From the NCBI GenBank assembly GCA_034006035.1, contig JAVETN010000008.1, positions 1 through 64,000 of the forward strand: a DNA stretch of 64,000 nucleotides. The letters run 5' to 3'. This stretch comes from Desulforegulaceae bacterium. GTDB taxonomy: Bacteria; Desulfobacterota; Desulfobacteria; Desulfobacterales; JACKCP01. A program made the translations under genes and the position numbers. The notes below the pieces were generated by a model. The model saw nothing but the letters and a program-made list of their open reading frames with translations. It searched no databases and was not told the origin of the DNA. Shown here one piece after another: positions 36,499-41,141 of this stretch (position 1 is its first letter; each line of letters starts with the position of its first letter).

Positions 36499-38715
36499 TT
36501 AATTTTTTGAGGATTCAGTAATGCTTGGGTAAATTCCCCCAAAGTTTTTAAGGTTTATAATAAAAGAAACCCTTTTTTCTTTTTCATCTTCTGAGTAAAA
36601 GATTCCCCCATCCCAACACTGTGAAATATAATGAAACCCAATTTTTTTATCATATTCATTTTTTTCTATATCATCTTCCATATAGATTCTTTCATAAGAA
36701 GCATAGAGATTTAAGGAAGGCGAAACAACAATTTCTCCAGAAATTACAGCTGACTTGTTCTCTTCGTGGGTATATCTATGTTCTAGCCTGAGCTTTGAAC
36801 CTTTATCAGATAAAATATTTAGGGCAAAATTTCTTTTGTTTATCATATATTGATAATGATCATACTCTCCTGTAAATTCAAAATTTAACTGGCTAAAAGG
36901 AGTAAACTTAAGATATGCACTAAGTGGCTGGAATCTTCCGTGTTTATACTCATCACCTGTATTATATATAATTCTATCATCAGCCATTTCATATTTTTGA
37001 GAAAGGCGAAACCTTAAAAACTCATGGTAATTATATTTGTTTTCATTAGAGTTATCAATTGATGGAAGAATATTTTTGGAAGTAAGTGTCTGAGTTAAAG
37101 CAAATTCAAATTCATTTTTTTCTTCTATTCTGTCAAAGTCTTCAAATTTAGGTAAGTCTCTTTGATCCTTTTCAGGAATAAAATGATAATTGAGTTCGGG
37201 AACTATTGTATGTCTTATTTTTTTGATTTTATCCCCATAAATATTATAGACTTTGTAAACTGAAGAAGAAGTTTTTAATTCAAGGCCATAGAGCTGCCTG
37301 AATGATTTTTCAAAGTCTTCATTTTTATCGGGATTTTCTGTGTACCATAAAGTTTCATTTATATAGGCTCCAGGCTCAATATATAAATAGTTGCCTAGAT
37401 TAAAAGGAAGATAAACTGAAGGAGTAAGGTTTATCCTATGACCTTTTTCACCGTTTATTCGGTGGAAATAATTGTAATCAGTAGCAAAAGATGTTTGTAA
37501 GGGCATGAAATCATAGGTTGTTCTTGGGCTGTACAATGAAAGTCTTGGAAGTTTTTGTACTGTAGAATTCTTTTTGTCTGTTTCCTTTACTATAAGGTCG
37601 TCCATCCATAAAAATTCAGCTTCAAAAATGTTTTTACCAAAATTTTTTGAAGAATATATTCTGTTTGTTCTTTTCATTTCATCATCTGGTTCAATATTTC
37701 TGCTGAAATTTTTAGTAAAGACTTTTTCTGTGAAATCATAACTCATATAACCACTGTCAAAATCTTTTAAATAATCGGGATCACTTGCCAGATCTATATC
37801 AATGCTTGTTTTAAATCCCGACTTGGATAAAAAATCAGATTTCATTCTAAACCAGTATCTGTCGTGATTTTCAATTTCAGGATCTTTAAACCTTTTTTCA
37901 TTATATAAATAAGGGTCATTATTTATCTGGTCGTAAAGAATTTGGCTGAAACTATGGGCTGAATGCTTGTATCTGAATTCAGCTCCTGTCCTGTTGGATC
38001 TTTTTTCCAAAAAATTATAATATAAGGTAAGATCTGCTTGATCTGAAAGCACAAGATAAAGAGGCTGGTTATAATCAAGTCCGTCTGTGCTTGAATAGTC
38101 AACCTGGGGAATCAAAAAACCTGATTGTCTTTGTGTTTTTACCGGGAAATATAAAAAAGGGAAATAAAACAAAGGCCTGTCCATTGTGTTCAGCCTCATA
38201 TTAAATGCATAGCCATATCCGTCTATTTCAGCCTTGATTTTTTTTGCTTTAAATTCCCAGTCTTTTTCAGGATTATCACACGAACTTATTGAGGCATCTT
38301 CAAAAACATAGGTTTTTTCAGATATTTTTTCTATTTTAGACCCTTTGATGTAAAAATTAAGGTCGCTTATAAATATCTTTCCATTTCTTATTATTCCTTT
38401 ATTTGTAGAGTAGTTGAAAAAAATCGAATCTCCGGTAAGTGTTTCATTTTTAGTTTTGAAAAGGGCATTGCCTGTAACACTTACTATAGTTGAATTTTGA
38501 TCTATAAAAACATGGTCACCTTTTATTTCTTTATCTTTTCCTTTAACAACAACATTTCCTGACGCTTTGACAATCTTAAGTTTTGTATCGTAATAAACAA
38601 AATCTGCATTGGTGTTTATTTTTTCACCTTTTTCAAATAAAGTTTGAGTAAAACCGTAGTTTTTAAAGAAAATGAAGATAAAGATGTAAAATGAAATTAT
38701 ACTTTTCTTTGCCAT
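36499..38715 (-). CDS. lptD: LPS assembly outer-membrane protein LptD
   Basis: 738 residues: a signal peptide (about 1-25), an LptA-like N-terminal domain (VKASGNVVVKGKDKEIKGD, GDSIFFNYSTNKG), the conserved SSCDNPEKDWEFKAK segment and the barrel with FYFPFLYFPVKTQRQSGFLIP. The C-terminal region has SQCWDGGIFY, typical of LptD. It inserts LPS into the outer leaflet together with LptE. It heads the minus-strand run that ends with kdnAB. Confidence 0.95.
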   Translation of the reverse strand: MAKKSIISFYIFIFIFFKNYGFTQTLFEKGEKINTNADFVYYDTKLKIVKASGNVVVKGKDKEIKGDHVFIDQNSTIVSVTGNALFKTKNETLTGDSIFFNYSTNKGIIRNGKIFISDLNFYIKGSKIEKISEKTYVFEDASISSCDNPEKDWEFKAKKIKAEIDGYGYAFNMRLNTMDRPLFYFPFLYFPVKTQRQSGFLIPQVDYSSTDGLDYNQPLYLVLSDQADLTLYYNFLEKRSNRTGAEFRYKHSAHSFSQILYDQINNDPYLYNEKRFKDPEIENHDRYWFRMKSDFLSKSGFKTSIDIDLASDPDYLKDFDSGYMSYDFTEKVFTKNFSRNIEPDDEMKRTNRIYSSKNFGKNIFEAEFLWMDDLIVKETDKKNSTVQKLPRLSLYSPRTTYDFMPLQTSFATDYNYFHRINGEKGHRINLTPSVYLPFNLGNYLYIEPGAYINETLWYTENPDKNEDFEKSFRQLYGLELKTSSSVYKVYNIYGDKIKKIRHTIVPELNYHFIPEKDQRDLPKFEDFDRIEEKNEFEFALTQTLTSKNILPSIDNSNENKYNYHEFLRFRLSQKYEMADDRIIYNTGDEYKHGRFQPLSAYLKFTPFSQLNFEFTGEYDHYQYMINKRNFALNILSDKGSKLRLEHRYTHEENKSAVISGEIVVSPSLNLYASYERIYMEDDIEKNEYDKKIGFHYISQCWDGGIFYSEDEKEKRVSFIINLKNFGGIYPSITESSKN

Positions 38716-38762
38716 ATCCTTGCTTTTTTTTAGTTTAAATAATAATTTAAAACGTCCTTATC

Positions 38763-38795
38763 AGCTTGGTAAAAGATTAATTACCAAGCTTTTTT
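38763..38795 (+). terminator. Terminator-like hairpin just upstream of tmk
   Basis: AGCTTGGTA (38763-38771) pairs perfectly with TACCAAGCT (38782-38790) and is followed by five more T. It lies in the divergent lptD-tmk spacer, only 35 bases before the tmk start, so it would either attenuate tmk or end plus-strand transcripts coming from within lptD. Confidence 0.65.
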
Positions 38796-38829
38796 GTAAA
38801 GAACAATTATTTCAATTAGGAGGTGCTAA

Positions 38830-39486
38830 ATTAACAGCGGTAAATTTATAACACTATGCGGGGGCGAAGGTACAGGAAAGTCTACCCAGGCAAAAAAATT
38901 ATTTGATTTTTTTCAAGAAAAAAACATTCCCTCTGTTCTTACAAAAGAGCCTGGAGGTACAAAAATTGGGATGATGATAAGAAAAATCCTTCTTTCGCCT
39001 GAAAATTCAGAAATTGGAAATAAGACCGAGCTTCTTTTGTATCTTTCAGACAGAGCAGAGCATTTTGAAAAGATTGTTTTACCTTCACTTGAAAAAGGTG
39101 AATTGGTTGTTTGTGACAGATTTATTGACAGCACTTTAGTTTATCAGGGAAAAGTAAGAAAAATGGGAACCAGGTTTATAAACTCAGCCCATGAATATAT
39201 TTTAGGAGATTTTCTTCCTGATTTGACCTTGATTCTTGACAGTAGACCTGAACTTTGTCTTGAAAGAATAAGTTTAGATAAAAATTCAGGAATCAGAAAT
39301 GAAGATGAATCAAGATTTGATAATGAAAAGCTTTCATTCCATAAAAAAATTAGAAAAGGTTTTTTAGAGCTTGCTGAAGAAGATAAATACAATAGATTTG
39401 TTCTTATAAATGCAGAAAAAACAGCTGATGAAGTTTTTGAACAAATCAAATCTGTAATTTATGAAAAAGGAATTGTTAAAATTTAA
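38830..39486 (+). CDS. tmk: Thymidylate kinase with an AUU start codon
   Basis: 218 residues: P-loop GGEGTGKST near the N-terminus, TKEPGGTKIG, the DR(Y/F)-motif in VCDRFIDSTLVYQG and the lid region. It phosphorylates dTMP to dTDP. The conserved opening GKFITLCGGEGTGKST can only be reached if translation begins at ATT 38830: an in-frame TAA stands directly before it, and no ATG, GTG or TTG occurs in frame before 38971, which would delete the P-loop. AGGAGGTG (38818-38825) is ideally placed six bases before ATT. A base substitution in the assembly is the alternative explanation. Confidence 0.88.
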   Translation: MNSGKFITLCGGEGTGKSTQAKKLFDFFQEKNIPSVLTKEPGGTKIGMMIRKILLSPENSEIGNKTELLLYLSDRAEHFEKIVLPSLEKGELVVCDRFIDSTLVYQGKVRKMGTRFINSAHEYILGDFLPDLTLILDSRPELCLERISLDKNSGIRNEDESRFDNEKLSFHKKIRKGFLELAEEDKYNRFVLINAEKTADEVFEQIKSVIYEKGIVKI

Positions 39487-39488
39487 TT

Positions 39489-40274
39489 ATGATCAGTCTT
39501 ATTTTTCCATACACTAGGTTAGAAAATCCTGTGATTGATAAAGCAGCAGATGATTTTTCTAATCTTTCATTGATATCTTTTGATAAAAATTCAATTGAAA
39601 TTGACGGGCTTTATTCAAAAATTTTTAAGTTGCCCCAAAGTTTATTTGAAAATATCAAAAGACTTGAAAAACATTATCTTTTAAACGGGATTTACGATAA
39701 AAACTTTGATTTTTATCAGTTTAAATTTAATGAAGAAAATGAATCCGAGCTTCCCGAGTTAATAGTAAAAGAACTTAAGTCCGGAATTTTAAATAAAAAT
39801 TTAAAAAAAATAGAAGACAAACTAGTTTTATCAGGACTTTTTTTAAAATTGTTTGAAAAATATGAATTAGACAAAAAACATATAAGCTCATCTTTTGCCA
39901 GTATTCAAAAAAAAGAACAGGAACTTTTTAATTCTCTTAGAAACAATAAAAATGAAAAATTTATAATACCTGAAAAAATCAATAATAAAATTTCACCAGA
40001 TTTGATTGAAAAACAAATTAAATCATGGCTTGATTTTTATTTTTATCTTGATTTTCCATCTTTTAATTTAATTACAGATAAAATTGAAAATATAAATATT
40101 CTTTTAGAAAATGGATTTAAACTTGAAAGCCAGGGTTTGGATTCAAAAGGCTTTAATACCTGGATTTTGTCATTTGATTTAGAATATTTGAACAATAAAA
40201 ACTTGGTTTTTCAATCAAAATCCCAGATATTTGATCATAAAAAAGGGAAATTGAAAATCAAGGTTGTCAGATAA
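39489..40274 (+). CDS. Protein of unknown function after tmk
   Basis: 261 residues, no signal peptide or membrane segment, rich in Lys, Asn, Phe and Glu. It begins MISLIFPYTRLENPVIDKA and has a mainly helical middle. I recognise no domain or motif. It starts two bases after the tmk stop, so it is co-transcribed with tmk; co-translation with a replication-precursor enzyme says little about its job. Confidence 0.7.
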   Translation: MISLIFPYTRLENPVIDKAADDFSNLSLISFDKNSIEIDGLYSKIFKLPQSLFENIKRLEKHYLLNGIYDKNFDFYQFKFNEENESELPELIVKELKSGILNKNLKKIEDKLVLSGLFLKLFEKYELDKKHISSSFASIQKKEQELFNSLRNNKNEKFIIPEKINNKISPDLIEKQIKSWLDFYFYLDFPSFNLITDKIENINILLENGFKLESQGLDSKGFNTWILSFDLEYLNNKNLVFQSKSQIFDHKKGKLKIKVVR

Positions 40275-40808: not shown

Positions 40809-41141
40809 ATGAAAAGTTATGTTGTAGATTCTTTAAACCACAAAGATATTTCATCAATTAAAAAGGTTTTAATAAAAAGATTTGGAAATCCTTTCCTGGA
40901 TGAAGTTTTCCAGGTAACCTTAGACTCTTCAGTTTTATCTTCCGAACAAAACAAACATAGCAACTGCAGTCCTCATTTTTTTTCTTTGAGTCTTGAAAAA
41001 GACAAACTTGTAGCTGAAACTCTTGTCCGCTCCAAAAAAACAATGAGATGTTCTTGTATGGGTTATGCTGACAGCCCTCAGATTTTATGGCTTATTGGAC
41101 TTATTAATGATATCCTTTCCGAAGCTGGAGTCAGAATTTAG
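40809..41141 (+). CDS. Small protein of unknown function with Cys cluster
   Basis: 110 residues, soluble. Conserved-looking features are HSNCSPHFFSLSLEKD, TMRCSCMGYADSPQI and the C-terminal helix LWLIGLINDILSEAG. The cysteines (CSC) could bind metal. I do not recognise a family. It lies alone between the ferredoxin and RNase J genes. Confidence 0.65.
   Translation: MKSYVVDSLNHKDISSIKKVLIKRFGNPFLDEVFQVTLDSSVLSSEQNKHSNCSPHFFSLSLEKDKLVAETLVRSKKTMRCSCMGYADSPQILWLIGLINDILSEAGVRI

Follow-up and report, generated by a model that had tools for sequence, protein, structure and literature searches.

Rare start codons in bacteria

The initiation factor IF3 discriminates against non-canonical start codons, and the gene infC, which has a rare start, is autoregulated by this discrimination (PMC5472188, PMC13009471). 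The rare-start genes of E. coli are infC and pcnB (PMC9410913), while in S. aureus four cases are described: cvfC1 with AUU, and ccpN, citZ and infC with AUA (PMC13009471). An extended Shine-Dalgarno (SD) sequence is predicted for cvfC1 (AUU), ccpN (AUA) and infC (AUA) in S. aureus, and the rare starts of cvfC1, ccpN and citZ give about 10% of the expression obtained with AUG in poor medium (PMC13009471). Listeria has six fixed rare-start cases, its rnhC starts at ATC, and its rsbW gains ATT or ATA starts under selection (PMC13068326). In Streptomyces, sigR starts at GTC and is repressed by IF3 (PMC5472188), and for lepA of Borrelia burgdorferi and Bacillus licheniformis an AUU start has been predicted from sequence (PMC1780047).

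A genome is expected to carry about one to a few genuine rare-start genes. In a preliminary description of the locus considered here, infC and pcnB were named as the few bacterial genes known to use AUU. Both are documented, but the list is out of date, since AUU or other non-canonical starts are now also described for cvfC1, ccpN, citZ, rnhC and sigR and predicted for lepA. Starts of the AUU type, rare as they are, are thus already known, and the thymidylate kinase gene tmk of a Desulforegulaceae bacterium is a credible further example. Among the papers searched, none joins thymidylate kinase with an AUU start codon.

The start region and product of tmk

The gene lies in a stretch of 64,000 nucleotides (the window), and all positions given without a contig name are counted from its first nucleotide. 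On the + strand, direct reading of the start region gives CAATT AGGAGGTG C TAA ATT AAC AGC GGT AAA TTT ATA ACA CTA TGC GGG GGC GAA GGT ACA GGA AAG TCT, with the following features in and around it.

38763..38796, + strand: terminator-like hairpin, a 10 bp stem and then T6, in the 114-bp gap between the divergent genes lptD and tmk, facing tmk
38818..38825, + strand: extended SD sequence AGGAGGTG (8-mer), with its AGGAGG core at 38818-38823
38827..38829, + strand: in-frame stop codon TAA, directly 5' of ATT
38830..38832, + strand: ATT, the proposed AUU start codon, on position 1 of TIGR00041
38830..39486, + strand: tmk, thymidylate (dTMP) kinase, 218 codons and TAA at 39484-39486, matching TIGR00041 and PF02223
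38860..38883, + strand: P-loop GGEGTGKS, residues 11-18, lost with a start at ATG 38971
38971..38973, + strand: ATG, the first in-frame canonical start (codon 48), within the domain and without an SD match

ATT lies 6 nt past the AGGAGG core, a spacing that becomes 4 nt when the end of the 8-mer is taken as reference. As the TAA abuts ATT, an upstream start in the same frame is ruled out, and further downstream the frame has no ATG, GTG or TTG ahead of ATG 38971, which itself lies 3' of the P-loop. The stop codon next to ATT 38830, the SD sequence six bases ahead and the lack of ATG, GTG and TTG before 38971 had all been pointed out before, and direct reading confirms each of them. When translation starts at ATT, the predicted N-terminal peptide is (M)NSGKFITLCGGEGTGK. 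The RNA of the start region can fold into a weak hairpin whose stem includes ATT; at -5.1 kcal/mol it is no better than the folds of shuffled sequences (z 0.06), and the region is without unusual RNA structure.

The 218-residue product matches TIGR00041 with 172.4 bits (cut-off 83.25) and PF02223 with 158.7 bits (cut-off 27). The TIGR00041 match takes residues 1-206 over positions 1-196 of the 196 in the profile, and it follows that the residue encoded by ATT is profile position 1. The 171-residue form that starts at ATG 38971 covers only positions 49-196 and is 48 profile positions short at its N terminus, where the P-loop lies. The D-R motif of the product, CDRFIDS, corresponds in the alignment to CDRYIDS in solved dTMP kinases, the chains of which align to the product from their residue 3, and its best relatives among solved structures are all thymidylate kinases. 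PF02223 is matched only once in the genome, which measures 2.64 Mb in 31 contigs and is 97.7% complete. Judged by these family matches, the window holds a dTMP kinase gene of the ordinary bacterial type.

Two bases past the tmk stop there begins a gene for a 261-residue protein (39489-40274, + strand) without a Pfam or NCBIfam match, and the same holds for a 110-residue ORF at 40809-41141.

Start codons in the genome and in relatives

All 31 contigs were collected, and 2,042 coding frames were called by a codon-usage score, with chosen canonical starts in the proportions ATG:TTG:GTG = 1597:321:115. An SD match of 8 nt occurs at just 40 of about 2,030 gene starts, and the whole 2.64 Mb genome contains AGGAGGTG 39 times, counted on both strands; the SD sequence ahead of the ATT of tmk is more than chance. 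An independent census of AGGAGG gave 156 sites at canonical gene starts, and among the AGGAGG sites near the beginnings of coding frames tmk alone has no canonical start upstream or at normal spacing, while two other sites that lack an upstream start have an ATG at spacing 12. The frames were also ranked by the coding score 5' of their first canonical start. Those that are coding there are mostly otherwise explained (prfB, selD, a peroxiredoxin, broken or edge genes), the case of prfB (contig C1, - strand) by its known frameshift. The clear cases of a non-canonical codon behind an SD match of at least 7 nt are tmk, with ATT behind AGGAGGTG, and infC, with ATA behind TAAGGAG (L043 2017-2019, - strand; contig C1, about 45.4 kb). 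Other sites in the genome where AGGAGGTG is combined with ATT or ATA are mostly inside long genes with canonical starts upstream, and two belong to short frames that do not look like genes (C3 68121 and C3 199446). The selD-like gene (C11 6342, + strand) and the peroxiredoxin-like gene (C4 65382, + strand) have an in-frame TGA and are probable selenoproteins; a tRNA-Sec is present on contig C5.

In this genome IF3 has its full length, and its alignment with IF3 of E. coli and other bacteria extends over the whole protein. The initiator tRNA has the anticodon CAU, the GGG/CCC pairs of the anticodon stem and a mismatched first acceptor pair, and an altered meaning of this tRNA was rejected in view of its CAU anticodon and normal initiator features. 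Nothing in the sequences of IF3 or the initiator tRNA suggests an altered initiation system. The 3' end of 16S rRNA, which carries the anti-SD sequence, was not found in the genome sequence, in which masked stretches are present.

To place the ATT codon among relatives, tmk was searched in 58 and in 390 genomes of the same order, a comparison at order level in which the relatives have at most 49% identity to the gene in the window. A canonical start is available in all 49 of the tmk genes that were read as DNA, and none of them needs ATT. In 46 an ATG stands directly before the F-I-T motif (with a GTG between in one of them) or at the equivalent position, and the remaining 3 have canonical starts further upstream. 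The gene in the window is a few residues longer ahead of F-I-T (I-N-S-G-K), a length that falls inside the bacterial range, given the alignment of solved dTMP kinase chains from their residue 3. Named genome contigs gave only distant matches, with up to 40% identity, and the viral contigs and plasmids searched gave none. Whether relatives keep ATT had been put forward earlier as a check on the AUU start, and the answer at order level is that they do not, the canonical start in its place usually being ATG. From the uniformly canonical starts of these relatives we conclude that ATT is a lineage-specific state, at the resolution available.

The same comparison bears on the thought that the true codon is ATG, one base away from ATT, and that an otherwise ordinary gene has been disfigured by a sequencing or consensus error or by a very recent mutation. 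This would agree with the canonical start, mostly ATG, in every relative inspected, and also with the single in-frame stops that interrupt a few conserved frames of the assembly (e.g., C20 32608, C4 (-) 184759 and C3 100029). From these few interrupted genes follows a small but real chance of a base error or a fresh start mutation at tmk. By a rough estimate, however, a handful of nonsense events corresponds to 0.1-0.2 expected losses of a start codon among 2,042 genes, and a victim hit at random would have an 8-nt SD sequence with a likelihood of only about 2% (40 of about 2,030). An extended SD sequence is, furthermore, typical of genuine rare-start genes, and error or mutation is on balance quite unlikely. 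Translation from ATG 38971 to a 171-residue protein would correspond to the longest ORF with a canonical start, which is the one that an automatic caller would list, but such a protein is without profile positions 1-48 and the P-loop, its ATG has no SD match, and the region upstream has both coding character and homology. As the genome would in this case be left without an intact dTMP kinase of the TIGR00041/PF02223 family, initiation at ATG 38971 is very improbable. Hardly any weight can be given to a start in another frame from which an indel or a programmed shift would lead into tmk. The frame that begins with TTG 38720 and ends with the TAA at 38849 (38720-38851, + strand) may serve as example: its 43 codons span the gap without a stop, and it overlaps the first 22 bases of tmk. 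This frame lacks coding character (score -1.8), no SD sequence is visible before its TTG, its use would need reading through the terminator-like hairpin, and relatives with Met directly before F-I-T have no such extension.

Initiation at AUU is favoured because no canonical start keeps the P-loop, the family match is full length from ATT, the gene is present in a single copy, and the SD sequence extends over 8 nt; translation of tmk thus very probably starts at AUU 38830. The original proposal of a thymidylate kinase translated from AUU accordingly stands as the best reading, with the open frame, the TAA, the SD sequence, position 1 of TIGR00041 and the sole dTMP kinase match on its side, and the absence of ATT from order-level relatives and the few nonsense interruptions of other frames in the assembly against it.

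Concerning the interrupted frames, the stop at C20 32608-32610 (+ strand) is a TAG in a hisA-like frame (...AWPKGM*VGGGIN...), and as no tRNA-Pyl is listed, it is an error, a pseudogene or a mutation. In-frame stops with coding character on both sides are found at C4 (-) 184759 and 185500 and at C3 (+) 100029. The stops fall in the frame of a probable substrate-binding protein, in a region that precedes an outer-membrane-efflux-like protein, and in the frame of a UvrD-like helicase; they may mark interrupted genes or assembly errors, and some may simply separate adjacent genes.

Proposed AUU initiation at tmk and the known systems

Thymidylate kinase is an essential type of enzyme. Consider, then, how its gene compares with infC, which starts at AUU in E. 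coli and at AUA in S. aureus as well as in this genome, and which shares with tmk an AUN start, a good SD sequence and the status of an essential gene. The infC start is widely conserved, whereas the ATT of tmk is absent from order-level relatives, and since infC encodes IF3, its start gives autoregulation, a feedback that tmk does not have. E. coli pcnB resembles tmk in having AUU in a gene outside the initiation machinery, where it limits pcnB translation (PMC9410913, PMC13009471), and differs from it in being non-essential (PMC9410913). In cvfC1 and ccpN, as in tmk, a rare start is combined with a predicted extended SD sequence at proper spacing (PMC13009471). The starts of these two genes are conserved in relatives, unlike the ATT of tmk at order level, and the starts of cvfC1, ccpN and citZ have been proven by retapamulin profiling and reporters, while that of tmk is predicted from its sequence. 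Another gene that, like tmk, has a rare start without being infC is sigR, but it encodes a regulatory sigma factor, its dependence on IF3 has been demonstrated, and its codon is GTC instead of ATT. In lepA, finally, the AUU start that the full-length protein would need was deduced purely from sequence, as here, for a different protein (PMC1780047).

When tmk is translated from AUU, the weak pairing between this codon and the CAU anticodon of the initiator tRNA would be offset by a near-perfect SD sequence at optimal spacing, and fMet would be placed at AUU. By analogy with the rare starts of S. aureus, initiation would be weaker than with AUG. Known biochemistry suggests that the expression of tmk would drop when IF3 is abundant, as it does for infC, so that translation of tmk is possibly sensitive to IF3. 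A further and rather unlikely extension is that the AUU start makes the supply of dTTP answer to IF3 and to the availability of ribosomes. Then infC (AUA) and tmk (AUU) would form a small IF3-sensitive set, by which translation capacity is coupled to the synthesis of DNA precursors, possibly with attenuation at the hairpin 38763-38796.

If the AUU start is confirmed, an essential metabolic enzyme joins the short list of AUU-start genes, and it will be clear that one lineage can acquire an AUU start even though its relatives retain a canonical one. Gene callers limited to ATG, GTG and TTG would in that case truncate an essential enzyme and drop its catalytic loop. A scan for a strong SD sequence, an in-frame stop, no canonical start and a full domain is a simple route to more cases.

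A scan of 38500-39000 for promoters of sigma-70 type found none, and Rfam gave only sub-threshold chance matches. The terminator-like hairpin is unique in the genome and lies about 20-30 nt 5' of the SD sequence. It is possibly an attenuator, or just a palindrome, and if the promoter is located upstream of it, tmk may be attenuated at this hairpin.
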